Program-made: the position numbers and the translations under genes
In this document: in pieces, positions 6,493 through 42,239 of the stretch
Layout of the letters: each line of letters opens with the position of its first letter
Position numbering within the stretch: the first letter of the stretch is position 1
The notes under the pieces: model-generated
The model's input: the letters and a program-made list of their open reading frames with translations, nothing else
What the model was told of the DNA's origin: nothing
Databases searched by the model: none
Assembly (NCBI RefSeq): GCF_900115365.1
Contig: NZ_FOWD01000031.1
Span: 1 to 51,592, forward strand
Length of the DNA: 51,592 bases
Source: Anaerocolumna aminovalerica
Lineage (GTDB): Bacteria; Bacillota; Clostridia; Lachnospirales; Lachnospiraceae
Direction: 5' to 3'

Positions 6493-6524
6493 CGTTCCCT
6501 CTCCTTCATAAACATTTTTAATAA

Positions 6525-6682: not shown

Positions 6683-6688
6683 AAAATC

Positions 6689-6716: not shown

Positions 6717-6732
6717 AATTACATATTTATCT

Positions 6733-9571: not shown

Positions 9572-9580
9572 TGATATAAT
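9572..9580 (+). promoter_or_regulatory. Extended -10 promoter of the acyltransferase gene
   Basis: TGATATAAT is a perfect extended -10 element (TGnTATAAT). Transcription would begin near 9587, inside an upstream in-frame ATG (9583), which argues that translation starts at 9604. Confidence 0.6.
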
Positions 9581-9603
9581 ACATGAAAGGCTGGGAGTCA
9601 GCT

Positions 9604-10317
9604 ATGAAACGAATCATTTTAATGGCAGTTAGGAGCATCTTCCAACTACCTTTTTGGTTTTATAAAATACGAAAATTATCTAATGCAGAGAAATACCATG
9701 AATCAACTAGATATGCTTTACTGCATCATTTAACCCCAATTGCAAACCGCCGCGGCCGGGTCAAAATAGAGTGCCACGGACTGGAGAACCTTCCTAAAGA
9801 GGACGGATATGTTTTATATCCAAATCATCAGGGATTATTTGATGTATTAGCAATTTTAGAGACTCATGAACGTCCGGTTTCTACTGTATCCAAAAAAGAA
9901 GTTGAAGACCTTTTTTTCATTAAATATGTTTTCCGAATGCTGGGTACCAAATTTATTGTCCGGGAAGACGTACGCCAATCCATGAAAGTTATGATGGAGG
10001 TAACCAAGGAACTGAAAGAAGGACGAAATTATATAATATTTGCAGAAGGAACCAGATCTCGTGATAAAAATAATATTCTTGAATTCAAAGGCGGCAGTTT
10101 CAAATGTGCTGCTAATGCCAAATGTCCAATCGTTCCGGTAGCAATTATTGACTCCTACAAAGCTTTTGATACCAATTCTTTATCTAAATTAACCGTTCAG
10201 ATTCATTATCTGAAGCCTCTTTATTATGAAGATTATAAAGATATGAAAACAGTGGAAATTGCCGAAACGGTTTCTCATATGATTCAAAAAACAATTAAAG
10301 AAAATGAAATAATTTAA
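9604..10317 (+). CDS. plsC: 1-acyl-sn-glycerol-3-phosphate acyltransferase (PlsC family)
   Basis: The protein has 237 residues from the ATG at 9604, chosen because GGGAG lies 6 bases before it and the promoter overlaps the earlier ATG. An N-terminal hydrophobic helix precedes the catalytic HX4D motif (NHQGLFD) and the substrate-binding FAEGTRSRD motif, with VPVAIIDSY closing the core. It adds an acyl chain to lysophosphatidic acid at the inner membrane face, forming phosphatidic acid. It is monocistronic, with its own promoter and a terminator. Confidence 0.9.
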   Translation: MKRIILMAVRSIFQLPFWFYKIRKLSNAEKYHESTRYALLHHLTPIANRRGRVKIECHGLENLPKEDGYVLYPNHQGLFDVLAILETHERPVSTVSKKEVEDLFFIKYVFRMLGTKFIVREDVRQSMKVMMEVTKELKEGRNYIIFAEGTRSRDKNNILEFKGGSFKCAANAKCPIVPVAIIDSYKAFDTNSLSKLTVQIHYLKPLYYEDYKDMKTVEIAETVSHMIQKTIKENEII

Positions 10318-10349
10318 AACAATAAATATACATATTGTTTTGTTTAATA

Positions 10350-10392
10350 ACAGACCTTGGACAAACTGCTTTCTAAGGTCTGTTTCCTTTTT
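10350..10392 (+). terminator. Rho-independent terminator after plsC
   Basis: ACAGACCTT (10350-10358) pairs with AAGGTCTGT (10375-10383) and is followed by a T-rich run, between plsC and feoA. Confidence 0.8.
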
Positions 10393-10483
10393 GATAAGAG
10401 CATTTTACTAATTAAATTGAATATGCACATGTTTTGAATTGGGGCATAGGATATTAAGACGTTTATTTAGAGGAATTTTTTCC

Positions 10484-10732
10484 ATGGCCAAAAATTATCC
10501 GCTCTCTATGTTATCAGTAGGAAGTTCTGCAATTATACAAAGTTCTGATGATACTTACTCTATGAAGAGGCGCTTATTGGATCTTGGCTTTTCTGCCGGT
10601 GCAAAAGTAAAATGCATTCAGTCTGCACCATGCGGTGATCCAATTGCTTACTCTATTCGAGGTACTATTATTGCTTTAAGAAACGATACAGCTCAGAAAA
10701 TAATAGTAGAGAATATAGAAGGGGTTGATTAA
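10484..10732 (+). CDS. feoA: Ferrous iron transport protein FeoA
   Basis: Counted from the ATG at 10484 the protein has 82 residues, the family size; a TTG-initiated 15-residue extension has no ribosome binding site, while AGAGGA precedes this ATG. It forms an SH3-like beta barrel with LSMLSVGSSAIIQ, MKRRLLDLGFSAGAKVKC and the closing strand GTIIALRNDTAQKIIVE. FeoA is a small cytosolic partner of FeoB in Fe(II) uptake. The stop codon abuts the GTG start of feoB, so the two are translationally coupled. Confidence 0.9.
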   Translation: MAKNYPLSMLSVGSSAIIQSSDDTYSMKRRLLDLGFSAGAKVKCIQSAPCGDPIAYSIRGTIIALRNDTAQKIIVENIEGVD

Positions 10733-12958
10733 GTGGGTCTGAGTCTTAATTCCGTTGGATATAGGGCATCAAAATCATCCCCAGAACTAAATGATAAGGA
10801 AGGTCATGTTATTGCCCTGGCAGGTAATCCTAATGTAGGCAAAAGTACCGTTTTTAACGGTTTAACAGGAATGAAACAGCATACCGGTAACTGGCCGGGC
10901 AAAACCGTCGTCAGCCAGACTGGGAATTGTGTATACGAAAACCAGAATTACTTACTTGTAGATTTACCCGGGACTTATTCCCTGATGGCACATTCCAGGG
11001 AAGAGGAAATTGCAAGAAATTATATTTGTTTTGAAAATCCGGATTTGATTATAGTTGTCTGTGATGCCACCAGTCTTGAACGTAATTTGAATTTGGTTTT
11101 ACAGATCATGGAAATAACCAATAAAGTTCTGGTTTGCGTAAATCTTATAAATGAAGCCCGGAAAAAGCATATTTTACTGGATTTAGAAAAGCTGGAAAGC
11201 ATATTAGGCGTTCCGGTTATTGGTATAAATGCCTTTCGAAAAATGGATCTGAAGGAGCTTCTGAAAAAAGCTTCTCATATAATTAACAACAATTCTTACG
11301 GGACTCCCAAACCAATTCTGTACTCTGAACAAGTGGAAGAAGCTATCAAGGAATTAGAGGTATTGTTACAGGAATTTCTTCCGGAACATTTAAACAGCCG
11401 CTGGATAGCCATGAAGCTGCTGGAATGGGATGATACTTTAATACATTCTTTAAATCATTATCTGGACATAGATTTATATCACTATACAGAGATTATTAAT
11501 AAAAGAAATAGAGCCCTGGAATCTTTACATAAACACGGTATAACAAGAAGGGTTTGCGAAGATGTAATGATTATAGAATTGTTACATAAGGTTGAAACAT
11601 TAAGTAAAAGCGTTATCAGTTACCAGAATATTAATTATGATACAAAAGACAGAAAAATTGATCGCATATTAGCCGGAAAACGGATCGGTTTTCCTATCAT
11701 GGTGTTACTACTGCTGTTAATCTTTTGGATAACCATATGGGGAGCAAATTATCCTTCTCAATTACTATTTCGGTTTTTATTCTTTATAGAAGATAAATTA
11801 ATGGAATTAACCTCTTACCTGGGCTTTCCAAAATTTTTACAAGGACTTTTTATTCAGGGAGCTTACCGGGTACTGGCATGGGTGGTATCGGTTATGCTGC
11901 CTCCTATGGCTATCTTCTTCCCTATGTTTACCTTATTGGAGGACCTTGGTTATCTGCCCCGCATTGCCTTTAACCTGGATCATTATTTTAAGAAGGCCTG
12001 TGCCTGTGGAAAACAATCTTTAACTATGTGCATGGGATTTGGCTGTAATGCTGCCGGGGTAACCGGATGTAGAATCATAGATTCTCCAAGAGAACGGCTG
12101 ATTGCCATGTTAACCAATAATTTTGTTCCCTGTAACGGAAGATTCCCTACTATCCTTTCCATTATTACCATGTTTTTTGTTACCGGAATATTGGGTACTC
12201 ATAACATACCATCCTCTAACTATATAGAAAGTACAGCAAATACTGCTTCGGCTTCGTCTATCCTTTCATACAATATATTAAGCTCTTTACTATCTGCTGC
12301 AATTTTAACAGGCGTTATTATCTTAGGTGTGGTAATAACTTTTGTTGTATCCCGCATATTATCGAAAACCATTTTAAAAGGGGTTCCTTCCTCTTTTACT
12401 TTAGAGCTTCCTCCCTATCGAAAGCCACAAATAGGGAAAATTATCATTCGCTCCATATTTGACCGGACATTATTTATTTTAGGCAGAGCAGTGATAATCG
12501 CTGCCCCTGTAGGATTCATTCTTTGGCTGGTGTCCAATGTCAGAATTGGCAATATTGCTATATTAAATTATTGCACCAATTTTTTAGATCCCATAGGTAG
12601 GTTAATGGGCCTTGACGGAGTTATATTAACTGCTTTTATACTTGGTTTTCCTGCTAATGAAATCGTACTGCCTATCATCATAATGACTTATCTGGCAAAT
12701 GGCACCATTATGGAATTTGATAATCTAGCGGCCTTAAAACAGCTTCTGGCAGCACAGGGATGGACCTCCTTAACTGCCATATGCACCATCTTGTTCTCCT
12801 TAATGCACTGGCCATGTTCCACCACTTGCCTGACCATTAAAAAAGAAACCGGAAGTTTAAAATGGACTGCTCTGGCAATTGTTATACCAACTGCAGCGGG
12901 CTTCTTTATTTGCACTATAGTTGCTGCAATAGGCAGAATAGTTATCCACATTATATAG
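10733..12958 (+). CDS. feoB: Ferrous iron transporter FeoB
   Basis: The protein has 741 residues and starts at a GTG directly after the feoA stop, with AGAAGGGG upstream. The N-terminal G domain has G1 GNPNVGKST (31-39), G2-type NWPGKTV and G3 DLPG. The G4 motif reads NLIN (137-140), where the consensus is NxxD. The membrane domain follows from about residue 310 with two Gate motifs, including CMGFGCNAAGVTGC and the late MHWPCSTTCLT. It imports Fe(II) across the cytoplasmic membrane. The Asp-to-Asn change at the guanine-specificity position is the one oddity. Confidence 0.95.
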   Translation: MGLSLNSVGYRASKSSPELNDKEGHVIALAGNPNVGKSTVFNGLTGMKQHTGNWPGKTVVSQTGNCVYENQNYLLVDLPGTYSLMAHSREEEIARNYICFENPDLIIVVCDATSLERNLNLVLQIMEITNKVLVCVNLINEARKKHILLDLEKLESILGVPVIGINAFRKMDLKELLKKASHIINNNSYGTPKPILYSEQVEEAIKELEVLLQEFLPEHLNSRWIAMKLLEWDDTLIHSLNHYLDIDLYHYTEIINKRNRALESLHKHGITRRVCEDVMIIELLHKVETLSKSVISYQNINYDTKDRKIDRILAGKRIGFPIMVLLLLLIFWITIWGANYPSQLLFRFLFFIEDKLMELTSYLGFPKFLQGLFIQGAYRVLAWVVSVMLPPMAIFFPMFTLLEDLGYLPRIAFNLDHYFKKACACGKQSLTMCMGFGCNAAGVTGCRIIDSPRERLIAMLTNNFVPCNGRFPTILSIITMFFVTGILGTHNIPSSNYIESTANTASASSILSYNILSSLLSAAILTGVIILGVVITFVVSRILSKTILKGVPSSFTLELPPYRKPQIGKIIIRSIFDRTLFILGRAVIIAAPVGFILWLVSNVRIGNIAILNYCTNFLDPIGRLMGLDGVILTAFILGFPANEIVLPIIIMTYLANGTIMEFDNLAALKQLLAAQGWTSLTAICTILFSLMHWPCSTTCLTIKKETGSLKWTALAIVIPTAAGFFICTIVAAIGRIVIHII

Positions 12959-18985: not shown

Positions 18986-19951
18986 ATGTCTAATTCGATG
19001 GTGTCTGCAAAGTCACCTTCAAAGGGTTTAGCGAAAAGAAAAAAAACAATTGTCTTATTAAGTATGCTTGCTCCAGGAGCAATTTGGCTTGTTCTGTTGC
19101 GGTACCTACCGATGTTCGGTATTGTAATTGCATTTCAGAAATTTACAATTTACACAAAAGCTCCAACTCTACTTAACAATATTATACATAGCAAATGGGT
19201 AGGCTTTAAAAACTTCGAGTTTTTGTTTGCCACCTCGGACTCTTGGAATATGATCAGGAACACAGTTGGTTATAATGCTTTGTGGATTGTGCTTGGAACT
19301 GTTATTGCAGTAGCTTTTGCGATTATGTTAAGCTTGATAACCAAAAAATTTGTAGCAAAAACCTATCAGACCCTGATGTTCTTTCCTTACTTTCTAAGCT
19401 GGGTTGTTGCAAGCTATTTCTTAATGGCTTTTTTGGATCCCACATACGGTCTTATCTCTCACCTTCAGAAGCAGGCGGGAATGGAGGTAACCCAATGGTA
19501 TTTCATTAATAAGCCATGGCCCATCATTCTGACGATTGCTTATCTTTGGAAAAATATCGGCTATTCGACGGTTCTGTATCTGGCCGCCATAACCGGTATC
19601 GACAGCTCCCAGTATGAAGCAGCAAGTATTGATGGAGCAAGTAAATGGCAACAGATCCGATATATAACAATTCCTCATTTAAAACCTATGATTATCATCC
19701 TGTTTATCATGAGCGTAGGACGCATTATTAACTCGGACTTTGGCTTGTTTTATCAGGTACCTAAAAACTCCGGACCTCTGTTCCCTACCACACAGGTTAT
19801 GGATACATATGTATATCGCGCATTTATGGCTACTAATAATCCTGGTATGAGTACGGCAGCCAGTCTGTTGCAGAATGTAGTTGGTTTCTTCTGTGTCTTA
19901 ACTGCTAACTCAATCGTACGTAAAATAGATGAAGAAAGCAGTTTGTTCTAG
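18986..19951 (+). CDS. Carbohydrate ABC transporter permease, LplB type
   Basis: The protein has 321 residues and about six membrane helices (first near 25-45, LSMLAPGAIWLVLLRYLPMF). The LplB-like segment FGIVIAFQKFTIY and the EAA loop (EAASIDGASKWQQIRYITIP) are present. GGGAGGAG precedes the ATG. LplB/YtcP-type permeases import oligosaccharides such as pectin, xylan or glycan fragments. It is the first gene of a three-gene importer operon, again without an ATPase gene. Confidence 0.92.
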   Translation: MSNSMVSAKSPSKGLAKRKKTIVLLSMLAPGAIWLVLLRYLPMFGIVIAFQKFTIYTKAPTLLNNIIHSKWVGFKNFEFLFATSDSWNMIRNTVGYNALWIVLGTVIAVAFAIMLSLITKKFVAKTYQTLMFFPYFLSWVVASYFLMAFLDPTYGLISHLQKQAGMEVTQWYFINKPWPIILTIAYLWKNIGYSTVLYLAAITGIDSSQYEAASIDGASKWQQIRYITIPHLKPMIIILFIMSVGRIINSDFGLFYQVPKNSGPLFPTTQVMDTYVYRAFMATNNPGMSTAASLLQNVVGFFCVLTANSIVRKIDEESSLF

Positions 19952-19964
19952 GAGGAGGAGAATT

Positions 19965-20903
19965 ATGAAATCTGATACCGTAAAATTTGTTTTGGCAAAG
20001 CGTAAGTCTAGAATGAATTCCATTGGCCTACCTGCTGAGGTTGTAATTAATATTATACTTGGTCTTTTTTGTTTGCTTTGCGTTGTTCCGTTTATATTTG
20101 TTGTAATCATTTCCTTTAGTGCCGAAGATAGTATACGAGAAATTGGCTACTCCTTTAGGCCGATTAAGTGGTCACTAGAAGCCTATAAATTCGCATTCAC
20201 TTCGAACAAAGGAATTTGGCGTTCCTACTTTAATAGCTTTTTTATTACTATTTTGGGTACGGCACTAAGTGTTCTAATTTGTGTATTATATTCTTATCCA
20301 CTATTCCGAAAGGATTTTAAGTATCGCAAATTCTTTACCTTCTTCTGTTTCTTTACCATGTTGTTTGGAGGAGGATTAGTACCAACCTATTATGTGAGTA
20401 AGAATATCTTGGGCTTAAACGATAATTATGCGGCGTTAATTGTACCTGCGTTATTTAATCCATTTAATATCATTGTTATGCGTACGTTTTTTCAAAGTTC
20501 AGTGCCCACGGAGCTGATTGAAGCTGCTGCAATTGATGGCAGCGGAGAATATAACACCTTGTTTAAAATAATCGTTCCGATTGCAAAACCTGGTATTGCT
20601 ACCATTGCTTTACTGAATGCACTGGCATACTGGAATGAATGGTATCTGGCCATGCTGTATATCCGAACCGAAGAGCTTTATCCTCTGCAGTATCTGCTAA
20701 TGAGATCGCAGCAAAATATTGACTTTTTAACAAGGAATGCCACCATGCTGGGTTCAGAGATTGCAAAAATCGTAAATGACTTACCGCAGCAAAATTTACG
20801 AATGGCGCTTGCTGTACTGATTGTAGTTCCGATTGCATTCGCCTATCCATTTTTCCAAAGATTTATCATATCGGGTCTTACGGTAGGATCAGTAAAAGGG
20901 TAA
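19965..20903 (+). CDS. Carbohydrate ABC transporter permease, LplC/YesQ type
   Basis: The ATG at 19965 (MKSDTVKFVLAKRKS) follows GGAGGAGGAG and gives 312 residues; an earlier in-frame ATG lies inside the previous gene and would add a basic tail. There are about six membrane helices, an EAA loop (EAAAIDGSGEYNTLFKIIVP) and the typical ending SGLTVGSVKG. It forms the translocation pore with the LplB-type protein. It starts 13 bp after that gene. Confidence 0.92.
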   Translation: MKSDTVKFVLAKRKSRMNSIGLPAEVVINIILGLFCLLCVVPFIFVVIISFSAEDSIREIGYSFRPIKWSLEAYKFAFTSNKGIWRSYFNSFFITILGTALSVLICVLYSYPLFRKDFKYRKFFTFFCFFTMLFGGGLVPTYYVSKNILGLNDNYAALIVPALFNPFNIIVMRTFFQSSVPTELIEAAAIDGSGEYNTLFKIIVPIAKPGIATIALLNALAYWNEWYLAMLYIRTEELYPLQYLLMRSQQNIDFLTRNATMLGSEIAKIVNDLPQQNLRMALAVLIVVPIAFAYPFFQRFIISGLTVGSVKG

Positions 20904-20961
20904 GAACGGCTTTTTTAAAAAGTCGCTTACATAATATAATATTTTTAGGGAGGGTTATAAA

Positions 20962-22599
20962 ATGAAGAAAAAAGTACTATCAATTGTCCTGACAATCATG
21001 ACGCTGACCGTACTACTTACTGGCTGTGGCAAAACAAAAGACAAAGAAACGACAGACACAAAAACTTCAAGCAATAACGTAACTGATACACCGAGCACGG
21101 ATGGTAAGGATCCGGCACAAACAGAAGAAGCAAATATCGATATATCGGAGCCGGTTACATTAACTTGGTTTCTCAATGGAAATAGTGTTTCCGATGATAA
21201 GGCCGTATTGGAAAAAGCTAACGAATACCTGAAGGAGAAATTGAATGTAACCTTGAAGCCAATCTGGGGCACCTGGGGTAATTTCGAAGACAACGTAGTG
21301 CTCTCCATTAGTGGTGGGGATGACGTGGATATTTATTTCACCAGCTCATGGACTCAGAATGAATACAATAAATACGCTAAAGATGGTGCTTGGCTTCGCC
21401 TGGATAGAGAAGACAATAACCTGATTGAAAAATATGCTCCCGACGCATGGAACATGCTTCCTGATATTTTGAAAAACAGTGCTAAAGTTCCTGGATCTGA
21501 TGGAGAAGGTGTATATGCACTTCCAGGATTTAAGGATTATGCTACCCAGAACTGCTGGGATGTGAATGTAACATTGTTAGAGAAATATGGCTATACCATT
21601 GATGATATTAGGAATACAGATTATTATGGTTTTGAAGAGATCCTTAAGAAAGTGAAAGAAGGAGAAGGAAAAGACTTCTATCCACTTTTAGTTGAGGGTA
21701 TGGTACTTGAAAGAATGGTAAATAATTCGATTATGGTTACTGGTGACTCCCAAGCTTGTAATATGCTTTCTTACTATATCAATCCTACAGATGTATCAAA
21801 AGAGGGTAGTTATGGCAATAAGATATTTGGTAAGTTTGAGACACCTGAATATAAGAAATTTGTTGAAAAGACTCGTGAATATTATTTAGCTGGATATATT
21901 GATCCTCAAATGGCTATTGCTGACCAGGCAAATGATGCTCGTACTGCAGCTCAGGATGCAGGAAAATATCTCATAGGAACACAAAGCTATTCTCTTGGAT
22001 ATGAAACTCAGGCAAGTGCACGACGTGGAATTGAAGTACAGATGGTTCCTTGCACACCTGCTTATGTTGATACCACAGCTTCCCAAGGTGCTATGATGGC
22101 TATATCAGCAACTAGCAAAAATCCTGAAAGAGCTCTCATGTTCCTTAACCTGCTAAATACCGATCCAGAACTTATGACTTTATTAAACTTTGGTATAGAA
22201 GGTACTCATTATGAGGTGGTGAATGGTGGCGAAGTTAAATTTATAACAGAGGCTCGTGGCACCTATCAGCCTTGGACCAATGGTATGGGTAATGTTACCA
22301 TTCTTCCTCCACAGGAAGGTCAGGGACTTAATTTCTATGATACTTTTAAGGAATATTATGCATCAGCAACTGCAATTCCAATTAACGGATTTGTTTTTGA
22401 TCAATCAAATGTTGAAACGGAAATGGCTGCGTTAGCCAACGTAGGTGGAGAATACGCTCTTGCGCTTAATACTGGTGCTATTGATCCTGCAACAAAATTA
22501 CCTGAATTTATACAGAAACTAAAAGACAATGGAATTGATAAAGTAGTAGATGAGGCAAGTACTCAATTAGAAAAGTTCCTCGAGGAAAAAAATAAATAA
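20962..22599 (+). CDS. Extracellular sugar-binding lipoprotein (LipO/YtcQ type)
   Basis: The protein has 545 residues. The signal peptide ends in lipobox LLTGC (Cys near residue 22), and a Thr/Asp/Lys-rich linker (25-50) follows. The large bilobed solute-binding domain carries VTLTWFLNGN, GDDVDIYFTSSWTQNEYNKY and late aromatic segments. The length, over 500 residues, is typical of LplA-type binding proteins for longer glycans. GGGAGGG precedes the ATG. It supplies the two upstream permeases and perhaps signals to the chemoreceptor encoded next. Confidence 0.92.
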   Translation: MKKKVLSIVLTIMTLTVLLTGCGKTKDKETTDTKTSSNNVTDTPSTDGKDPAQTEEANIDISEPVTLTWFLNGNSVSDDKAVLEKANEYLKEKLNVTLKPIWGTWGNFEDNVVLSISGGDDVDIYFTSSWTQNEYNKYAKDGAWLRLDREDNNLIEKYAPDAWNMLPDILKNSAKVPGSDGEGVYALPGFKDYATQNCWDVNVTLLEKYGYTIDDIRNTDYYGFEEILKKVKEGEGKDFYPLLVEGMVLERMVNNSIMVTGDSQACNMLSYYINPTDVSKEGSYGNKIFGKFETPEYKKFVEKTREYYLAGYIDPQMAIADQANDARTAAQDAGKYLIGTQSYSLGYETQASARRGIEVQMVPCTPAYVDTTASQGAMMAISATSKNPERALMFLNLLNTDPELMTLLNFGIEGTHYEVVNGGEVKFITEARGTYQPWTNGMGNVTILPPQEGQGLNFYDTFKEYYASATAIPINGFVFDQSNVETEMAALANVGGEYALALNTGAIDPATKLPEFIQKLKDNGIDKVVDEASTQLEKFLEEKNK

Positions 22600-24821: not shown

Positions 24822-24924
24822 TTATAATCCTGCTGAAAAACACAAAAACTCAGTACATCATTTACCATGAAATTTACATTTTTTGATATACTCCATCAAT
24901 ATCCCTTAGAAATCACTTAAAAGC

Positions 24925-24960
24925 GTATGTCAGACATAAAATGTGTACGTTAGACATAAA
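24925..24960 (+). promoter_or_regulatory. Two 16-bp direct repeats, possible response-regulator site
   Basis: GTATGTCAGACATAAA (24925-24940) and GTACGTTAGACATAAA (24945-24960) differ at two positions and start 20 bp apart. The spacing and the ACGTTAGAC word resemble LytTR-type (AgrA/ComE) sites, which often drive peptide-signal operons. A TCAGATA / TATCTGA palindrome lies about 70 bp further on. The repeats precede the peptide precursor gene; the binding protein is unknown. Confidence 0.45.
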
Positions 24961-25075
24961 GGCTATACATTTAAAATGCAGTTAATACCATTATCACAGC
25001 GTTAATACTAGTTCAATTTAATATTAGTCAGATACATTATCTGATACCAATAATTCTTCAATATATATATTTTTC

Positions 25076-25124
25076 AACAAATTTCAAAAGATGAAAGCGC
25101 GCAGTTGAATTTGTTGTGAAAATA
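25076..25124 (+). other. Leader hairpin upstream of the peptide precursor
   Basis: CAACAAATTTCAA and TTGAATTTGTTG pair with one bulge around a loop holding AGATGAAAGCGC. The same 12-mer recurs at 25420-25431 after the precursor gene, so it brackets that gene. The remainder of 24822-25244 holds no other gene. Confidence 0.5.
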
Positions 25125-25244
25125 GAACCTGTGATTGTAAATGAAGATTAGTCTTGCTATCTTAAACTTGAAAATTCAGTCTTCGTAATGAATGTATATT
25201 TTACAATCATCTCAAAAATAATTCAAACGAAAGGGGATTGTAAA

Positions 25245-25406
25245 ATGAATAAGCCAAAAAAATTAAACAAAAATAACAATGTTTCAAAAAGCGGTCTCAC
25301 TTCATATGCATGTACTACTTACTGCCAGTGCGATAAAAGCTGTTACGGCGGAAGCAGTGCAGGAATGCAGGTAAATACAATAGGTTCTACTGTTAGAGAA
25401 TGGTAA
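25245..25406 (+). CDS. Cys-rich ribosomally made peptide precursor (Clo7bot/CLI_3235-like)
   Basis: I start at the ATG at 25245, since AAAGGGGA lies 7 bases before it; this gives 53 residues. A basic Asn/Lys-rich leader (MNKPKKLNKNNNVSKSGLTS) is followed by a core with Cys23, Cys27, Cys29 and Cys33, a symmetric C-x3-C-x-C-x3-C pattern (CTTYCQCDKSC). A Gly/Ser segment and the end STVREW complete it. It sits directly before a radical SAM/SPASM maturase gene. The leader and Cys core resemble what I recall as the clostridial 'Clo7bot' Cys-rich peptide family. The mature product is expected to carry Cys-derived crosslinks and to be exported; antimicrobial or signalling activity is not shown. Confidence 0.82.
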   Translation: MNKPKKLNKNNNVSKSGLTSYACTTYCQCDKSCYGGSSAGMQVNTIGSTVREW

Positions 25407-25448
25407 TCTGCAATCAGGCAGATGAAAGCGCCTAGTGTAACATAACTT

Positions 25449-25488
25449 GGGGATAAGGATATTTGATTATATAAGTATCCTTATCCCC
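25449..25488 (+). terminator. Hairpin between precursor and maturase genes
   Basis: GGGGATAAGGATA and TATCCTTATCCCC are perfect 13-bp arms. No U tract follows, so it probably acts as a partial terminator or mRNA stabiliser, giving more precursor than enzyme, a common RiPP-operon layout. Confidence 0.75.
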
Positions 25489-25514
25489 TATAATACATAG
25501 CAGGAGGAAATCAT

Positions 25515-26903
25515 ATGAACCCTATTTATAAAACTTTTTCGACACTAAGCGGATTCTATGTTTATGATAGAAGTACGAACTCTATTATTAACATTGAAAG
25601 AAATGAATTTGATTTACTAAACAAAAATGATAATCAAACAATTATACAATTTAAGAAAAAAGGTTATATGAAAGATAATAGTATTGAGCGGATTAGGCAC
25701 CTTAGTACGGATTATCTTAAACATTACCTTCATAATAATATAGAACAACTTACTATACAGCTAACACAGAATTGTAATCTGCGATGCAGTTATTGCCCTT
25801 ATATGGGTGGGTATGATAATCGAAAGTATTCCAATAAAATAATCTCCATTGAAACAATCCGGAAAGGAATTGATTTTCTATTCGCCCATTCACAAAATTC
25901 AAAACAGATTGCAATCGGTTTTTACGGCGGTGAGCCATTATTGGAAATGCCTTTACTTAAAGAAGCCGTAGAATACATAGAGGAAGTAAAGGAAGGCCGG
26001 GAGGTTGTCCTTACTTTGACGACAAATGGAACTTTACTGACTGATGATAATGTGGAATTCTTTATGAAAAAAAGTTTTCAAATTCTTATAAGTCTTGATG
26101 GTGCTAAAGAATACCATAATGCCAACCGGGTGTTTCCTAATGGTGAAGGATCTTTCGATGTTATTATGAAAAAACTCAGACATATAAAGGAGAAATATCC
26201 AACATTCTTTTCCAAGTTAACAATTAATTCTGTTATCAGTACTAATAATGATTTATCTTGTAGCAATGATTTTTTTAACGCAGACGAAGTTTTGGAACAA
26301 CTCGTTGTAAATATGACTACGTTAAGTGAACATAATTCCAAAGATTCCATACTTTATGATGATAGCTTTAAAATAATCAACGACTTTGAAACATGTAAAG
26401 CATATCTATATATGATAGGGAAAATCTCACAGCGTCATGTATCAAAGCTATATAAGTCAAGTATAGGGCAAGTGAATAGCATATATAAAACATTGGAACC
26501 CCATGAAATAAAAGAAAAAGAAACCCATCCCGGTGGCCCATGCCTACCTGGTGTTTCCCGCCTTTTTATGGATGTCGACGGTAACTTTTACCCATGCGAG
26601 CGGGTCAGTGAATCATCAGAGATTATGAGAATCGGTCATATAGATTCGGGAATTGACATTGTGAAAGCAAAATATCTACTAAATGTGGGAGCCATTACGG
26701 AGCAGGAATGCATAAACTGCTTTGCCTTTAATTTCTGTAAAGCCTGCTGCTCTAGTGCCGACGGTAATACGGAACTGTCGAGAGAGAAGAAACTCGCCAA
26801 TTGTAACAATATCAAATATTCAGCATTAACAGATATGAAGTTAATAACAATGCTCAAAAAATTTAACTATAACTTTGAAGAATCAGCATATGAGGAAAAA
26901 TAA
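25515..26903 (+). CDS. Radical SAM/SPASM peptide maturase (CcpM-like)
   Basis: The protein has 462 residues. The N-terminal 80 residues resemble a leader-binding region. The radical SAM cluster motif CNLRCSYC (Cys87, Cys91, Cys94) and the glycine-rich FYGGEPLLE follow. The C-terminal SPASM domain (about 340-435) has Cys in GGPCLPG, FYPCERV, ECINCFAFNFCKACC and ANCNN, enough for two auxiliary iron-sulfur clusters. Such enzymes use S-adenosylmethionine radicals to crosslink Cys or other side chains in a precursor. AGGAGGAAA precedes the ATG. The precursor is encoded directly upstream. Family naming (Cys-rich peptide radical SAM maturase) is from memory. Confidence 0.9.
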   Translation: MNPIYKTFSTLSGFYVYDRSTNSIINIERNEFDLLNKNDNQTIIQFKKKGYMKDNSIERIRHLSTDYLKHYLHNNIEQLTIQLTQNCNLRCSYCPYMGGYDNRKYSNKIISIETIRKGIDFLFAHSQNSKQIAIGFYGGEPLLEMPLLKEAVEYIEEVKEGREVVLTLTTNGTLLTDDNVEFFMKKSFQILISLDGAKEYHNANRVFPNGEGSFDVIMKKLRHIKEKYPTFFSKLTINSVISTNNDLSCSNDFFNADEVLEQLVVNMTTLSEHNSKDSILYDDSFKIINDFETCKAYLYMIGKISQRHVSKLYKSSIGQVNSIYKTLEPHEIKEKETHPGGPCLPGVSRLFMDVDGNFYPCERVSESSEIMRIGHIDSGIDIVKAKYLLNVGAITEQECINCFAFNFCKACCSSADGNTELSREKKLANCNNIKYSALTDMKLITMLKKFNYNFEESAYEEK

Positions 26904-26905
26904 AT

Positions 26906-28015
26906 ATGGATAAAAATTTGATGATATATCCTTTTAATAAACGGGTTAGTGCAATTGCCAGGTACGCTCAATTGTTGAAAGGTTACATATTAACAGCGGC
27001 CGTATCCCCTAAAAACTACGGTTATGATGGTAAAGATGTTTCCTACATAGATGGCGGAGAATTTGTCGGTATCACAATCACTTCCTCATTTCGAGAAGGG
27101 CTTGAACAATGTGACTGTATTTTATTTTCTGCCAGTACTTTTCTTATGGATATGAACTACTACGAAGAAAAAATTCAAGAGGCTGGTAATTGCGGTAAAG
27201 AGATATGGATTACAAAAGAATTGGTCAAGGACTTTATTAATGCTCAAAAAAGTATCCCTACAGGTGTCAAAGTGCTTGGAAGTAATCCTGATCAGCTAAG
27301 GGTATCATATAATGATACAAATACTATACAAGAAATCAACGTTCCAATTTTATCACTCTTTCAGGTCGGAGAGTTTTGTCATGGCTTTGACACCCAGCTA
27401 TTGATGGCAGAACGATTTGAAAAAGAAGGATATCGGGTGAGTAAGGTCAGTTCCAATACACTTGGGGCATTATTCAACGTTCATATGGTGCCAGACTATA
27501 TCTATGACCCCCATATGCCTTACGAAGATAAAATTGTCAGCTTCAATCATTTTCTTAATTCTATTGTAGAAGATAATCAACCCGATATTCTCTTGTTGGA
27601 AGTCGAGGAAGCAATCCTTCCATACAATAACAGAATTACGAATCACTTTGGAGTCATTCCAACAATTATTTCAAAATCAGCTCAGGCAGATGTTAGTATA
27701 TTGAGCCTTTATTATAGTGACTATGACAAAGAATATCTTGACCGCTTGAGGACTTTTTGCAGGTATGCATTAAATGCAGAAGTAAATTATATCAACATGA
27801 CAAACGAAACCATGTTTGTTAAGGAAATTAATTACACAGACCCTCTCCATTATGTATCCGTGGATCGGGATATATTGCTTAATTCCATCGGTTCTAATTT
27901 TAAGGACTATGATTGCATGTTCTTCCATACCTATGATTTAGTCAGTGTGGATGCTGTATATCGTGATATCCTGTGCAAACTTTCACAAAATGAAGACGTT
28001 GTTATAACAGGCTAA
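26906..28015 (+). CDS. Peptide maturation system partner protein (TIGR04066-like)
   Basis: The protein has 369 residues, with no signal peptide or membrane helix. It starts two bases after the maturase stop, so expression is coupled. The opening MDKNLMIYPFNKRVSAIARY and the segment GEFCHGFDTQLLMAERFEKEG stand out. The latter sits where a P-loop might be, but the Gly-Lys-Ser/Thr is not intact, suggesting a decayed nucleotide-binding fold. It matches my recollection of a protein family found only with clostridial Cys-rich peptide clusters and named just by its position there. The biochemical role is unknown. Confidence 0.72.
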   Translation: MDKNLMIYPFNKRVSAIARYAQLLKGYILTAAVSPKNYGYDGKDVSYIDGGEFVGITITSSFREGLEQCDCILFSASTFLMDMNYYEEKIQEAGNCGKEIWITKELVKDFINAQKSIPTGVKVLGSNPDQLRVSYNDTNTIQEINVPILSLFQVGEFCHGFDTQLLMAERFEKEGYRVSKVSSNTLGALFNVHMVPDYIYDPHMPYEDKIVSFNHFLNSIVEDNQPDILLLEVEEAILPYNNRITNHFGVIPTIISKSAQADVSILSLYYSDYDKEYLDRLRTFCRYALNAEVNYINMTNETMFVKEINYTDPLHYVSVDRDILLNSIGSNFKDYDCMFFHTYDLVSVDAVYRDILCKLSQNEDVVITG

Positions 28016-28033
28016 CGGGGGAGGTAACTGATT

Positions 28034-28282
28034 ATGATGGATAAAGAACTAGTTATAGAAGAATTAAAAAGAATACTGTATAATTTATTACAGATAACCG
28101 TTGCTGATGGTGATGTCAATTTATTCAGCAGTAATATCAATATTTCTCCAGTAAATATGGTTTATCTGCTATTGGAATTAGAAAAAAAATTTGCCATTAC
28201 CATAGATGACCGTTTCATGGATGAACTTCCCAATATAACCATTAATCATTTAGCAGATGCAATCTGTATATGTTCCAAGTAA
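28034..28282 (+). CDS. Acyl-carrier-like protein of the peptide maturation system
   Basis: The protein has 82 residues, the size of an acyl carrier protein. Helix II aligns well (MVYLLLELEKKFAITIDD against the usual VELVMELEEEFGIEIPD). The DSL phosphopantetheine motif, however, reads SPV, so the modified Ser is replaced by Pro with a Ser one position earlier. It may therefore not be loaded in the usual way and could serve as a docking subunit. GGGGGAGG precedes the ATG. It closes the plus-strand precursor-maturase-partner operon; related 'acyl carrier-related' proteins are known to me only from such clusters. Confidence 0.75.
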   Translation: MMDKELVIEELKRILYNLLQITVADGDVNLFSSNINISPVNMVYLLLELEKKFAITIDDRFMDELPNITINHLADAICICSK

Positions 28283-28421
28283 ATATATCACGAATTATAA
28301 TATATAAGTGAGAAATCTGAAACCGCCTTTTACTCATTGAAACAAGGGCCATAACACCAGAAATGAGTTTTCGTTTACCGGAATACCAAAGGGTTCTAAA
28401 GATGACCACAGATGGGGAAGG

Positions 28422-28471
28422 CAATGAATGAAATAAGGCATTGCCCCGCATCAATGCGGGGTAATTCATTG
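28422..28471. terminator. Nested hairpin between convergent RiPP operons
   Basis: An inner GC-rich stem CCCCGCA / TGCGGGG (28444-28461) sits inside outer arms CAATGAAT / ATTCATTG. It lies between the convergent carrier-protein and ABC-transporter genes and can serve both. The stretch 28290-28430 also holds a short plus-strand open frame ending ...LKMTTDGEGNE, possibly a gene remnant. Confidence 0.65.
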
Positions 28472-28475
28472 TTTA

Positions 28476-30185
28476 TCATCTATTTAACAAATCTACCATC
28501 TCGGAAAAATCCTGATTACCATTATATAACTCCTCATAGGTTCCACTTACAAGTCCTTCAGTACCTAACAAAATAATCTGATCCACTTCTTTTAATACTT
28601 CTTGCTTATGTGTAACCACAATAACCGTTTTTTCCTTTAGCCTGCTATGAAGCAAATTATTAATCTGCATTTCAGAATACACATCCGTATTGGAAGTTGC
28701 TTCATCAAAAATGATAATTGACTTATCATGGAGCAACGCACGTGCCATTGCAATCTTTTGCTTTTGTCCTCCTGACAATAGGGAACCATTTTGCCCTACC
28801 GAATAATCTAAAGACACTTCATCTATGAAATCTTTTAATCCGCTATCAATCACAGCCTGCATTATTTCTTCTTCGCTTTTCTTTTTATACAGGCAGATAT
28901 TATTACGGATTGTATTATCAAATAAATATACTTGCTGGCTAACCACCGATATCATTTCCCGATATTCGGATAATGCAAAAGATAGAACATCTTCCTCATT
29001 TAATAAAATTTTCCCCTGGTCAGGCTCATACATCCGTGTAATCAATCCGATTATAGTCGATTTTCCTGTCCCATTTTTACCGATTAATGCTGTCTTGCTC
29101 CCTTTCTCAAATCTTATGTACATATTTTTCAGGATTGGCTTATCAAGTACATAAGAAAAACTGACATCCCGCAGTTTTATTGTTCCAAATACAGGATGGG
29201 TCAAAGGGTTGCCTCTTTCCTCTTCTTCCTGTAAATCCATAAATTCGTAATAGCGCTTTGTGGAAGGAATAATGCCAGATAGCATATATCCAATATTTAA
29301 TATTCCTGAAATGGGTGCGGTCACATAAGTGCTATAGGTAATAAAGGCAAAAACACTTCCCACTGACAGCTTAAAATCAAATACTAAATTAGCTCCCAGG
29401 ATATACAATACCATAATCAGAAGTTGGATCATAAGGGTATCCATTGAAGCATTCCATACCCCAAGCAAGTTTATCTTTTTCTTTTGTATAATGACTTTCT
29501 TTTGTTTGTCTTCAAATTCCTGCTTTTTCCCATCTGCAATATTAAATAGCTTGATTTCATGGACACCACCCACAGTATCCCCAAACCACTTTGCGTACTT
29601 CTGAGCATCCTCAATATATTGATCTGCATACAACTTTCTCCTCCGAGCAAGATATTTCATGAGTAAATATTTGCATGGAATATAAATGAGTACTAGTAAA
29701 GTCATCTTATAGTTGATAATAAAAAGACCAATGATACCTCCAGTGATGCTAAAAACCTGGGTAACAATAAAAAAAGCCGCCCCATCGGTAATAGATACCA
29801 TATACGCAATATCCGTATTTAAATTATTGAAAATTTCTGTATAGTTTTTCCCGGTAAAATAATTTGCTTTTATCTTTATTAAATGTTGAAAGGCTTTCTC
29901 TGATAGAGAGTATTCTAGTTTAGCCGAAATATCTATCCTTTTTTTCTCTTTTAGTAAATCAATTGCCGCATTAACGATAGGTAGAATAGCTGATATCATA
30001 ACCAACTTAATCAATAATTCTTTATCCCCTCCAATAAATCCATAATCCATGATACTCCTACTTAACAAAGGGATACATAAATTAAGCCCAGTAGAAATAA
30101 TTAGGCAACCGAAAATAAAATAAATTATTCTTTTATATTCTTTCAAAAGACTAACCAATTTTTTAACTGCATCTTTATTACTCAT
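28476..30185 (-). CDS. ABC exporter, membrane and ATPase domains fused
   Basis: The protein has 569 residues. Six membrane helices occupy about 15-300. The ATPase domain follows with Walker A IGKNGTGKST (near 365), the Q-loop in ISVVSQQVYLFDN, signature LLSGGQKQKIAMARALL, Walker B IIIFDEATSN and the switch His in VVTHKQE. There is no N-terminal C39 peptidase domain, so leader removal must come from elsewhere, plausibly the subtilase encoded just upstream. The two genes overlap by 8 bp. It probably exports the matured Cys-rich peptide. Confidence 0.92.
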   Translation of the reverse strand: MSNKDAVKKLVSLLKEYKRIIYFIFGCLIISTGLNLCIPLLSRSIMDYGFIGGDKELLIKLVMISAILPIVNAAIDLLKEKKRIDISAKLEYSLSEKAFQHLIKIKANYFTGKNYTEIFNNLNTDIAYMVSITDGAAFFIVTQVFSITGGIIGLFIINYKMTLLVLIYIPCKYLLMKYLARRRKLYADQYIEDAQKYAKWFGDTVGGVHEIKLFNIADGKKQEFEDKQKKVIIQKKKINLLGVWNASMDTLMIQLLIMVLYILGANLVFDFKLSVGSVFAFITYSTYVTAPISGILNIGYMLSGIIPSTKRYYEFMDLQEEEERGNPLTHPVFGTIKLRDVSFSYVLDKPILKNMYIRFEKGSKTALIGKNGTGKSTIIGLITRMYEPDQGKILLNEEDVLSFALSEYREMISVVSQQVYLFDNTIRNNICLYKKKSEEEIMQAVIDSGLKDFIDEVSLDYSVGQNGSLLSGGQKQKIAMARALLHDKSIIIFDEATSNTDVYSEMQINNLLHSRLKEKTVIVVTHKQEVLKEVDQIILLGTEGLVSGTYEELYNGNQDFSEMVDLLNR

Positions 30186-31632
30186 TTATATTTCCCCCTA
30201 GTATTTCTTTTATCTTCTGAAATATTATTTGTATAGACTCAAAACCTACCTCTTGAAGCAGGATTTGTTCTGTGATAATATCTTCACAGAAAAACGAAAC
30301 CTGATAATTGTACTCCTGCTTTTCAAATATAACCCGTAAATCAGCCTTTTCCTGTAATCGCTCTGAGTGCGGCATAATATCTGGAGATAGACCAAGCAGC
30401 AATGCGACGTTCTGCTTACAATAAGTCTGCCGATAAAAAAAATAATCGAGAGCTGATTCATATTCCTCTTTCAATGCTTCCTCTGGTATATACTCCAAGC
30501 CATATAATACGCTTTCCACATGAAAACTAACTGTATATACATGGTAGTTGTCCTGGTAAAAACTTCTTTTTAGTTCGGAAAGAAAAAACATCTCATCCAT
30601 GTATCCGTCCCATTCACATAAAATAGTTGGAATATTGAGTTCCGTTACTTCTTCATCATTTCTACTATCCAGAATATATTTCATTTTATTTTGGGAACTC
30701 CAGAAAAATCTATCCGTAATTGGTTGTTTCACTATCTGGTTACCCAAATAAACAATATTCTTATTGTAAAAGTTTCCTTCCTTTATTTGAGATAAATCAT
30801 CAATGATAACAGTATCAATTAGATGCATTTTTTCTCCTGTCATTCCTTCCACTGTGTTAAAATAATACTTCGCCCTACTTTTAATCTTTGAAGTTTTGAC
30901 CAAGGCTGTATGAATCCAGTCCGGTTCATAATATTGTGGGAGAAAAAATATTCCATAGTTCTTTGCAATAGGTTGTAAATTTTTTATGACTTCATGTATA
31001 TTAACAGATGATATATTGGTACATATTCTGCTTATTAGTGCCGTAATGTATGGTGCAGCATAGCTATTGCTTTGCTGTATAATAATTTTCTCTTCTCGAA
31101 TCATAAGTTCCTGTTTTACTGGTGCAAGCACATTAATTCCAAGATTCCCCTTGTACGTGAATCTGTTATATTTCTTGCTATCTGTTGCTACTCCAATTAC
31201 ATTGGAAAGAGAGGCCGGATAAGAAACATATTCACTGTTTGAATTCGCTGCAATGACAAGTAATCCCTGCATTGCGTACTGATTGATTAGCTTTTGTATC
31301 GGCTCTTTGTCTTCAAAGTATGTTGACCCAAGACTTAAGTTTATAATTTGAATTTGATGCTGCAGACACCACTCCATTGCTGGATGTAGTTTAGATAGTA
31401 AGCCCTTCCCATTTTCATTTAAAACTTTAACACTGCTTAAAATACTTTCAGGAAAATATTTTTCAATAATCATTGCACAGATAGTCCCATGCATAAAACT
31501 CACCTGCTCCATGTTATCATTATCAAAGAAACATTCTCCTTCATTCGACACTAAAATCTTATGTTCCAATGGACTTTTCAAAAGCGATTCATTTACACCA
31601 TTATCAATAATGGCAATTTTAATGTTTTTCAA
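30178..31632 (-). CDS. S8-family (subtilisin-like) peptidase of the RiPP cluster
   Basis: The protein has 484 residues and starts at a TTG with AGGTGA 5 bases upstream. The catalytic set is visible: Asp10 (IIDNGV), His48 (MHGTICAM), oxyanion Asn130 (AANSNSEY) and Ser190 (SNSYAAPYITA). No signal peptide or propeptide is present, so it should act in the cytosol. The catalytic domain ends near 205; the remaining 280 residues form a domain I do not recognise. Location with the exporter suggests it cleaves the leader from the modified precursor. SNS replaces the usual GTS at the active serine. Confidence 0.85.
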   Translation of the reverse strand: MKNIKIAIIDNGVNESLLKSPLEHKILVSNEGECFFDNDNMEQVSFMHGTICAMIIEKYFPESILSSVKVLNENGKGLLSKLHPAMEWCLQHQIQIINLSLGSTYFEDKEPIQKLINQYAMQGLLVIAANSNSEYVSYPASLSNVIGVATDSKKYNRFTYKGNLGINVLAPVKQELMIREEKIIIQQSNSYAAPYITALISRICTNISSVNIHEVIKNLQPIAKNYGIFFLPQYYEPDWIHTALVKTSKIKSRAKYYFNTVEGMTGEKMHLIDTVIIDDLSQIKEGNFYNKNIVYLGNQIVKQPITDRFFWSSQNKMKYILDSRNDEEVTELNIPTILCEWDGYMDEMFFLSELKRSFYQDNYHVYTVSFHVESVLYGLEYIPEEALKEEYESALDYFFYRQTYCKQNVALLLGLSPDIMPHSERLQEKADLRVIFEKQEYNYQVSFFCEDIITEQILLQEVGFESIQIIFQKIKEILGGNINE

Positions 31633-31744
31633 ACTATCACCTACTCCCCCTATATCAACAACCTTCTTTAATATAATATTAAAATTCTAAGCGTTTATAT
31701 TTTTTGATCGAGATACCGATTTTTGTCCTGTAATATGCTTTTTA

Positions 31745-31889
31745 TTATTCATAATGTTCATGTCCTTCCCCTGATGTAAACTCCCAGATATAGTAAGATA
31801 TAGAATATTCTTTCATAATTTCCTTTATTAGGTCTAATAGTGACAACATCTCATCTTTGTTATTCACATGCTGCAATTCGTAAAATCAT
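31745..31889 (-). pseudogene. Small open frame broken by a frameshift, start of the S8/ABC unit
   Basis: An ATG at 31889 has an excellent site (GGAGGGGGAAGAGT) and a TATAAT 5' of it, but the frame stops after nine codons (MILRIAACE). A one-base shift joins a second frame, open to 31745, with 40 or more helical residues (LQHVNNKDEMLSLLDLIKEI, then a Tyr-rich stretch and EFTSGEGHEHYE). Either a frameshift disabled a small gene or the downstream part is translated from GTG 31867. It is not recognised. It precedes the peptidase gene and may have been part of the peptide cluster. Confidence 0.35.
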
Positions 31890-41269: not shown

Positions 41270-41361
41270 AAATCAGTACTAAGGAAGGGGGCATAAATAC
41301 CTCTTGACATTAATCATCCTTTTTGTTATTCTAACTTGGTAAAAAAGTTAATATAATTTAA

Positions 41362-41489
41362 GTTTTCTAGGGTTCCGTAATAGAAATTATTAGTCTGGTC
41401 CAAGAGAAAACGCACAGTCTTATAGATTGTGTACACGGTGGGATAAAAGCCTAGGAGTTATTTTGAATACTCCTAGGCTTATTTTTTGT
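41362..41489 (+). promoter_or_regulatory. ykkC-class riboswitch (guanidine-I-like) with overlapping terminator
   Basis: Conserved ykkC elements are seen in order: CTAGGGTTCCG, CTGGTCCAAGAGAAAACGCA, ACACGGTGGGATAAAAG, then CCTAGGAG. The 3' strand of helix P1 (CCTAGG) is also the 5' arm of a terminator (GCCTAGGAGT 41449-41458 with ACTCCTAGGC 41469-41478, then TTATTTTTT). Ligand binding should therefore hold P1 and prevent termination, a genetic ON switch. The GGGATAAAAG core fits subtype 1 (guanidine) better than the GGGACAAAAG-like subtype 2 (ppGpp/PRPP), judged from memory. Confidence 0.85.
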
Positions 41490-41510: not shown

Positions 41511-42239
41511 ATGTTAGGATTATTAATTACGACAATTTTCACAAGTACAGCAGACAGCCTTAACCCAATTGCTATAACACAGCAATTTATCCTGCAGGGC
41601 ATGGTAAAAAAGCCAAAACATATTTGGTTTTTTATTATACCAACCGGGGTCACAAACTTGATTGGTGAATTTCTGGCATACTTTGGCCTTATCGCTTTCA
41701 TAAGTGATTTTTTCGGTAAGCTTATGAATAAATATGGACAAATGCTGTATACGTTTGAACTAATACTAGGCATTGTTTTTCTTATTGCCCTTTTTCATTT
41801 GGTTCATAATGCTAAGATTCAATCACTGAAAAGCCAGATTTCATCCTTGAATTCTGATGAAAGTAAAAGTAATGACGAAACAGAAGCTGCGAGTAAAATA
41901 AAATCTGTATCTCCAACGGCCTTACTGGCACTGGGTGTATGCGCAACCATTTCAGAATTGACAACCGCCTTGCCTTATTTTGCTTTTTTGACAATCCTTT
42001 TTAATTATCAACTTACATTTATACAAGTGGCATTCATACTTATCGTGTACAATACTATCTACACATTACCATTGATGATTTTATACTTTGTTTATGTAAA
42101 AGCCCAAGACAAGTTTGATAGTCTTTATACTATTATAAAATCAAGAATTACAAAATGGTCAAATATAATTGCTCCAACTGCCGCTGGCCTTATTGGATCT
42201 ATTATGGTTTATCATTCCGTATCACTTTTATTAAAATAA
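41511..42239 (+). CDS. GAP/LysE-like six-helix membrane protein, riboswitch-controlled
   Basis: The protein has 242 residues. About six membrane helices lie near 1-22 (with TADSLNPIAI, the DxxNP-type motif of LysE/CcdA/GAP proteins), 38-62, 75-97, 130-155, 160-185 and 212-235. A polar Ser/Asp/Glu-rich loop (about 100-128) lies in the middle. The family is thought to export small molecules. AAGGAGGAAATAAA precedes the ATG, 22 bases after the riboswitch terminator. Control by a ykkC-class element suggests that it exports guanidine or a related toxic cation. Usual guanidine exporters are SMR-type (Gdx/SugE), so this would be a different carrier. Confidence 0.82.
   Translation: MLGLLITTIFTSTADSLNPIAITQQFILQGMVKKPKHIWFFIIPTGVTNLIGEFLAYFGLIAFISDFFGKLMNKYGQMLYTFELILGIVFLIALFHLVHNAKIQSLKSQISSLNSDESKSNDETEAASKIKSVSPTALLALGVCATISELTTALPYFAFLTILFNYQLTFIQVAFILIVYNTIYTLPLMILYFVYVKAQDKFDSLYTIIKSRITKWSNIIAPTAAGLIGSIMVYHSVSLLLK

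Follow-up and report, generated by a model that had tools for sequence, protein, structure and literature searches.

Which proteins are needed together to make a crosslinked peptide, and what does the protease that removes its leader read? Both questions are opened by a gene cluster at 25245-31632 in a 51,592-nucleotide contig of Anaerocolumna aminovalerica, here called the window, from a genome of 4.62 Mb in 83 contigs (G000; G labels genomes, and L the loci gathered for comparison). It is well supported as a cluster for a ribosomally synthesized and post-translationally modified peptide (RiPP) of the CLI_3235/CcpM class, which is known and mostly uncharacterised, and it very probably makes a small, crosslinked, secreted peptide. 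As a class member it is ordinary, and it is of interest for two previously unassigned family proteins, the TIGR04066 protein and a protein resembling an acyl carrier protein (ACP). These are two of the most conserved proteins of CcpM clusters, previously without a role in family libraries, and fold and motif loss now make their roles testable. New at the family level are the predicted fold and the P-loop loss of TIGR04066, an apparent eroded copy of it on the subtilase, the loss of the ACP serine, and natural fusions.

A six-gene peptide-maturation cluster

The six genes named in the initial annotation are all present as open reading frames (ORFs), and library searches confirmed their families:

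25245-31632, plus-strand genes, then convergent minus-strand genes: cluster as a whole (reading frames and family matches)
25245-25406, plus: precursor peptide, 53 residues, four core cysteines (AAAGGGG ribosome site; held-out profile)
25515-26903, plus: CcpM-type radical S-adenosylmethionine (SAM)/SPASM maturase, 462 residues (TIGR04068)
26906-28015, plus: TIGR04066 protein, 369 residues, predicted DUF1611/DgcN fold, eroded P-loop (family score, model, Foldseek)
28034-28282, plus: ACP-like protein, 82 residues, P39 at the phosphopantetheine serine position (TIGR04069 below cut-off; alignment to 6lvt)
28476-30185, minus: ATP-binding cassette (ABC) exporter, 569 residues, membrane and ATPase domains fused, without a peptidase domain (PF00664, PF00005)
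30178-31632, minus: subtilase, 484 residues, TTG start, catalytic part about 1-224 and putative TIGR04066/DUF1611-like tail about 225-484 (PF00082, 51 bits)

The maturase scores 539.1 bits against TIGR04068 (curated cut-off 500), and the likeness to CcpM clusters suggested for this DNA holds; the likeness to Clo7bot (TIGR04334) suggested beside it is ruled out, at 62.3 bits against a cut-off of 600. The enzyme is of the radical SAM/SPASM type, as read initially: C87, C91 and C94 of the CX3CX2C motif and seven cysteines of the SPASM region (C343, C361, C399, C402, C408, C411 and C430) are invariant in 29 of 29 aligned sequences. Its next-best NCBIfam relatives are the lachnocin, PapB, RumMC, nif11-like and a GG-samocin peptide maturases. 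SCIFF/CteB and the maturases of PapB ranthipeptides and RumMC sactipeptides are related radical SAM/SPASM enzymes, but CcpM lies far under their cut-offs (PapB 201 of 340 bits, RumMC 181 of 720, SCIFF 134 of 425). Among solved structures the maturase profile matches 5wgg (E 6.6e-55), aligned from profile position 5 and so including the N-terminal region. We take 5wgg to be CteB, and its N-terminal region to be the leader-binding RiPP recognition element domain.

The four-cysteine precursor was also read correctly. Its leader ends SGLTSYA and its core starts CTTYCQCDKSC; an in-frame ATG at 25188 is an alternative start that would give 72 residues. The ORF is not a chance one: searched with a profile of 50 other precursors, the window's and its L026 paralogue's excluded, the 993 short ORF starts of the window have it at the top (E 1e-7), followed by the alternative start of the same ORF, the first unrelated ORF having E 0.67. 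Because the 50 were gathered by iteration from the window precursor, this test is supporting and not fully independent. Members of the family carry a MKKLGKK...TIEAYA leader with the cysteine-rich core directly after it (three to seven core cysteines in 53 non-redundant members), and the window precursor is a divergent one.

The exporter matches PF00664 and PF00005 over threshold, and Pfam gives it no C39 peptidase domain; that it and the subtilase are convergent with the other genes, as described initially, agrees with their coordinates. The subtilase keeps D10, H48 and S190, catalytic residues invariant in 34 sequences, and its best NCBIfam match is QhpE (NF049966), at 89.0 bits below the cut-off of 165.

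Conservation was followed across the genome collection in 79 named loci, found with the CcpM profile (best 80 matches kept). At a threshold of 300 bits with our own profile they contain 84 CcpM-type genes; L130 nearly duplicates L132. For 81 of the 84, TIGR04066 is the gene directly downstream of the maturase (78 of the 80 that have 1.2 kb or more of room). The three exceptions are a TIGR04066 fused to the maturase (L139), a locus that ends 202 bases past the gene (L163) and a partial maturase at a contig start, with none (L181). An ACP-like gene (E up to 0.01) comes directly after TIGR04066 in 67 of 84 (65 of the 77 with 2.6 kb of room). Of the 49 CcpM-type genes with more than 8 kb on both sides, 40 have an ABC gene within 9 kb, an upper bound in which any ABC transporter counts, and 42 of 75 have a family precursor no more than 4 kb upstream; the precursor search required a ribosome site and three cysteines, so some were missed. 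Gene co-occurrence across relatives, the absence of which had been named initially as grounds for giving up the cluster, is thus strong. A subtilase is found within 9 kb of 32 of the 49 genes with such flanks. Since the iterated subtilase profile also picks up free TIGR04066 through its C-terminal half, we recounted with a catalytic-domain model, which gave 31 of 49. By the first count 48 of 49 subtilase matches at the named loci share the direction of the maturase (49 of 50 by the catalytic-domain model); in the window the subtilase is convergent instead.

CcpM-type clusters occur in Lachnospiraceae, Ruminiclostridium, Paenibacillus and other named genomes. At E up to 0.001, TIGR04066 was found in none of 14 control genomes, whereas 10 of 98 relatives had it (9 over the cut-off), as did 30 of 397 family genomes (11 over) and 6 of 398 phylum genomes (3 over); these sets overlap and each include the host genome. 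No relatives of TIGR04066 were found in viral contigs. The same genome holds two further CcpM-TIGR04066-ACP sets at 24.7-43.2 kb of contig C56 (L026 and L027), the second also with a 1040-residue protein, two ABC genes and a subtilase. A precursor-like gene stands at the first of these sets; at the second the filter gave none in the less than 0.8 kb upstream that was covered.

Published members of the class, cited here from the portions of text available, include clusters of Roseburia intestinalis L1-82 (PMC4573289) and SacP23 (PMC10731318), which have the same maturase, TIGR04066, ACP-related, subtilase and ABC genes. Unlike them, the window has a convergent subtilase and exporter, a precursor and an ACP-like protein below their family cut-offs, and a four-cysteine core. 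The class had been described initially as recognised by computation only, which no longer holds: the SacP23 cluster of Paenibacillus polymyxa gave antimicrobial activity on expression in Bacillus subtilis, with the empty vector as negative control, and the part of the description that stands is that the available text contains no solved structure (PMC10731318). The mass reported there, m/z 3404, misfits the prediction, and that text shows no crosslink. The identity of the purified SacP23 peptide deserves a check, and the vector control argues against a host product alone. Subtilosin A, a peptide that B. subtilis makes on its own account, also has a mass of about 3.4 kDa and a blocked N-terminus. 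Elsewhere, TIGR04065 is mentioned for Blautia (PMC7872077) and CcpM once (PMC9062424), and a Paenibacillus sactipeptide-2 cluster, which may be of the same class, has a predicted precursor that overlaps an acyl carrier protein gene (PMC7829367).

The TIGR04066 domain, free and on the subtilase, and the ACP-like protein

The 369-residue partner, unassigned in the initial annotation, can now be assigned by model and Foldseek to the DUF1611 fold. By sequence it belongs to TIGR04066 (277.2 bits, curated cut-off 200), has no Pfam match at E 1 and stays under the DUF1611 gathering score. An AlphaFold2 model built from 71 window and named-locus sequences reached a mean pLDDT of 93.9 and a pTM of 0.92, and rows 1-7 of its Foldseek matches in the PDB are 2obn (four chains), 2g0t (two chains) and 7xrj. 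The best E, 7.2e-12, belongs to 2obn (TM 0.63/0.67), with chain 2obn_B superposing at rmsd 6.4 over 388 columns with 11% identity. The PDB titles are DUF1611 for 2obn, putative nucleotide binding protein for 2g0t and N-acetyltransferase DgcN for 7xrj; only 2obn is titled DUF1611, and 2g0t and 7xrj (DgcN) are presumably DUF1611 proteins as well. The TIGR04066 profile itself has 2g0t as its best solved structure (E 0.0017), a weak independent sequence hint. By its model, then, TIGR04066 has the same overall fold as these DUF1611/DgcN proteins, from which it differs in an eroded P-loop, in an identity of 11% and, for the window protein, in the absence of a Pfam match. The P-loop of 2g0t, GTDCVVGKRT, gives the DUF1611-type pattern GxxxxxGKx[ST], found in 2 of the 71 TIGR04066 proteins, correctly placed in 1 (L140) and not in the window protein. 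An alternative pattern, GxxxxGK[ST], was discarded; it misfits 2g0t and gave no contrast, being absent from 71 of 71 TIGR04066 proteins and from all eight fused subtilases described below.

A second copy of this domain, also eroded, appears to form the C-terminal half of the subtilase. In hhalign, the tail (225-484) matches the TIGR04066 profile with 99.0% probability (E 2.6e-17; catalytic-domain control 0.1%) and, in a second set-up, with 98.3% (E 1.9e-14), these E-values being for single comparisons; five controls with maturase, catalytic-domain or ACP profiles gave 0.1-0.4%. The alignments compared were built separately, and the recruitment of TIGR04066 by the iterated subtilase profile does not affect them. 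The curated TIGR04066 model also matches the paralogous subtilase of the same genome (C56:42553-42966, E 7.2e-6). Foldseek with a model of the whole subtilase (pLDDT 89.7) has only subtilisins among the 50 matches listed, and neither adds nor subtracts.

Sister radical SAM systems of Lachnospiraceae show the same association: at L037, L092-L095, L097 and L098, subtilases of about 600 residues carry a fused TIGR04066/DUF1611 domain beside radical SAM maturases. Two that were scanned match TIGR04066 (3.8e-29 and 4.1e-20) and, over the gathering score, PF07755 (5.1e-12 and 3.0e-10). The series of matches from TIGR04066 through the subtilase tail to PF07755 ties TIGR04066, the tail and DUF1611 together. 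Like the window, the sister systems have a subtilase with this domain next to a radical SAM maturase; in them the domain is fused to the subtilase with its P-loop kept, and the maturases scanned (4 of 7) are nearest to TIGR04463 or Clo7bot, all below cut-off, and are not CcpM. In numbers, 7 of 8 fused subtilases retain the DUF1611-type P-loop, against 0 of 34 subtilase tails from CcpM loci. The exception among the eight is at L096 (G155, 5757-7427), where the radical SAM maturase is of the lachnocin type (825 bits, cut-off 550) and the subtilase is fused to a TIGR04066-like domain with an eroded P-loop. PF07755 is over its cut-off in 1 of 41 relatives, in a fused subtilase, and gives short, weak matches in 4 of 199 phylum genomes; these outgroup matches are too sparse to order fusion and split. 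Searches of the open-access literature for these names gave no statement linking TIGR04066 to DUF1611 or to a domain in common with a subtilase; none of the papers on DUF1611 was about RiPPs by title or start of abstract, those listed for DgcN included none of relevance, and there was none for lachnocin.

The ACP-like protein was predicted initially as such, and the gene stands; its carrier serine is missing. In HMMER the ACP-like profile matches the true ACP 6lvt (3e-9), whose carrier serine aligns to the P39 column. That column holds Pro in 38, Ala in 28, Ser in 9 and Gly in 6 of 98 members, and Ala in 20, Pro in 19 and Ser in 2 of a stricter set of 50. Most members are therefore incapable of phosphopantetheinylation at this position, and a working carrier is rejected for most of the family. 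S38 of the window protein is one place before P39, where 23 of 98 members have Ser, and an unusual phosphopantetheine attachment at it is a remote possibility. Judged by the motifs they have lost, the TIGR04066 and ACP-like proteins are probable pseudo-enzymes.

A proposed pathway and its rivals

The explanation we consider best, and rate as fairly probable, is that a peptide is crosslinked by thioethers on a scaffold of pseudo-enzymes, cut by a subtilase in the cytoplasm and then exported. The radical SAM enzyme CcpM would bind the short precursor by its KKL.K...SYA leader, through a CteB-like N-terminal region, and with the help of S-adenosylmethionine and iron-sulfur clusters would form thioether bonds between cysteines of the core and residues nearby. 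It would act in complex with the TIGR04066 protein and the ACP-fold protein that lacks a carrier serine, and these two would do no chemistry, holding the precursor or passing it on. The subtilase would read the crosslinked precursor through its DUF1611-like tail and cut the leader in the cytoplasm, and the ABC exporter would secrete the product, which may have an antimicrobial or signalling role. For the DUF1611-like domain we favour precursor recognition or transfer.

Natural fusions commonly mark proteins that work together, and two occur here. At L139 (Bacterium 1XD42-54, 8974-11154; the same gene as L085) a 726-residue ORF combines CcpM (10-471) with TIGR04066 (436-677), and at L161 (1769-3166) a 465-residue ORF combines TIGR04066 (10-315) with an ACP-like domain (390-460). 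These CcpM-TIGR04066 and TIGR04066-ACP fusions therefore support the complex. A need for partners could explain failed reconstitution with the maturase alone, of which we found no report.

Crosslinking, leader removal by the subtilase and export, the three steps proposed in the initial annotation, have support by analogy only: the order of crosslinking, cytoplasmic leader removal and ABC export is that of Qhp, to which the QhpE match of the subtilase points. There, QhpD crosslinks, the subtilase QhpE cuts the leader in the cytoplasm, QhpF exports, and QhpG promotes crosslinking by QhpD (PMC7876137). Radical SAM thioether crosslinking, a cytoplasmic leader-removing subtilase and ABC export make the QhpC/D/E/F system alike to what is predicted here from genes; the differences are that its substrate is a subunit of quinohemoprotein amine dehydrogenase (PMC7876137) and that the QhpE model, of 219 positions, matches only the catalytic part of the window subtilase.

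Several points weigh against the proposed pathway. The precursor scores 16.2 bits against TIGR04065, under its curated cut-off of 26, and the ACP-like protein 32.2 bits against TIGR04069, under its cut-off of 70, its operon position being as in relatives. Around the core cysteines of the 53 precursors no residue offset exceeded 3 standard deviations of 300 shuffles, many offsets having been tried. The pseudo-enzyme status is a matter of motif loss, and the loss is incomplete: L140 keeps an entire DUF1611-type P-loop, and the P-loop lysine is retained in 52 of 71 TIGR04066 proteins, the window protein having Gly. CcpM seems to own a leader-binding region, so that TIGR04066 would be dispensable for leader binding. 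The DUF1611 fold of the tail is a result of profile comparison, and our own TIGR04066 profile had no direct match to the window subtilase at 1e-4. Finally, the protease is sometimes outside the cluster (a subtilase in only 31-32 of 49).

A broader idea, which we put forward tentatively and hold to be possible, is that a DUF1611-fold module, once a nucleoside triphosphatase (NTPase), serves as a shuttle common to radical SAM peptide pathways. The free TIGR04066 protein, with the ACP-like protein as an apo-ACP mimic, would present the precursor to CcpM, and the subtilase tail would take over for leader removal; CcpM clusters would have split and eroded a module that the sister systems kept fused and with its P-loop. 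If this were true, CcpM and its sister classes would record an NTPase turning into a scaffold.

Other readings fare less well. The product could be a metal-binding or signalling cysteine-rich peptide with few or no thioethers, which we think unlikely. CxC spacing dominates the precursor cores (133 of 232 Cys-Cys gaps in 53 cores), and no acceptor stands out. CxxxD/E spacing is a feature of PapB products; as a rule for this family it is rejected, being present in only 13 of 53 cores, a count that also suits a peptide poor in thioethers. The maturase speaks against such a product, as a full radical SAM/SPASM enzyme whose relatives (lachnocin, PapB, GG-samocin, RumMC, nif11-like) mature peptides.

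It is improbable that the TIGR04066 and ACP-like proteins are instead a working pair, a DgcN-like enzyme with its carrier, that adds a second modification such as N-acylation. The fold relation to 7xrj, titled as an acetyltransferase, would fit this, as would the adjoining genes in 67 of 84 loci, their one fusion (L161) and the blocked N-terminus of the SacP23 peptide (PMC10731318). The pair would, however, need active sites that are largely gone: the carrier column has Ser in only 9 of 98 or 2 of 50 members, with Pro or Ala commonest among the rest, just 1 of 71 TIGR04066 proteins retains the DUF1611-type P-loop, and the families matched by the six window genes include no acyl-loading enzyme or ligase.

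Decay or silence of the cluster, with the exporter and protease pair rearranged and a 43-residue ORF at 31745-31876 as a remnant, seems to us distinctly improbable. The convergent pair, against the co-directional arrangement elsewhere (48 of 49, or 49 of 50), and the absence of a family match for the ORF point that way, but the reading frames of all six genes are intact and their key residues in place, and the hairpin after the precursor and the terminator-like sites between the convergent operons (listed below) are orderly. That TIGR04066 is an immunity protein, the role proposed by the SacP23 authors for 23sacE (PMC10731318), is very improbable given a model with the DUF1611 fold, a gene directly after the maturase in 81 of 84 and fused to it in L139, and a domain common with the protease, all of which point to maturation.

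Flanking elements and genomic setting

Further features lie around the genes of the cluster:

24919-24958, plus: tandem 20-nucleotide repeats upstream of the precursor, copies 80% identical, spacing 20 (repeat search)
25449-25488, plus: stem-loop between precursor and maturase (folding energy against shuffles)
28435-28465, both strands: terminator-like hairpins between the convergent operons (plus 28440-28465, 11 pairs; minus 28457-28438)
31745-31876, minus: 43-residue ORF upstream of the subtilase (no NCBIfam or Pfam match)

The first tandem repeat holds the palindrome TATGTC-A-GACATA (24926-24938), which occurs once in the window and was not found in L026, L027, L031 or L109; from their sequence, the repeats are a possible dedicated operator. 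On either side of the precursor gene lies a 17-nucleotide direct repeat (25089-25105 and 25420-25436, copies 88% identical and 331 bases apart), which may have been left by a duplication of the precursor or may serve as a processing signal. The stem-loop is not one of the terminator-like sites predicted in the region; a 61-nucleotide stretch there folds at -25.3 kcal/mol (z -5.57, 0 of 200 shuffles equally stable), and its arms are 94% complementary. It is a candidate attenuator or mRNA-stabilising hairpin and would raise the ratio of precursor to enzyme. Over the whole region there are 6 terminator-like sites where shuffling would lead one to expect 3.4, which makes any single site weak; Rfam gave no match inside the cluster at gathering thresholds. 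The ORF at 31745-31876 may be a gene remnant or encode a tiny peptide; immediately upstream, an ATG that follows a GGGGGAAGAG stretch opens only nine residues.

As for the cluster as an island, the term used initially, its site is variable, though the comparison gave no clean empty site. In a genus relative (G009, locus L199) a different CcpM cluster stands beside orthologues of the window's left-hand sugar transport genes (19929-22599); these genes are 67% and 76% identical to the window's, against 39% for the maturase and 27% for TIGR04066. Stretches of G003, G014, G012 and G011 with the sugar-binding orthologue gave no match to maturase, TIGR04066 or subtilase, and in G007 the right-hand MurQ/phosphotransferase system genes are present without the cluster beside them. 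The site beside the sugar transport genes may be a hot spot for CcpM clusters.

Outside the cluster, a guanidine-I riboswitch lies at 41356-41459 on the plus strand (90.2 bits, gathering 63), 51 bases before the gene of a 242-residue protein (41511-42239, plus) that matches PF11139 SfLAP (46.5 bits, cut-off 35). As an idea, this protein might export guanidine and belong to a family unusual for that role.

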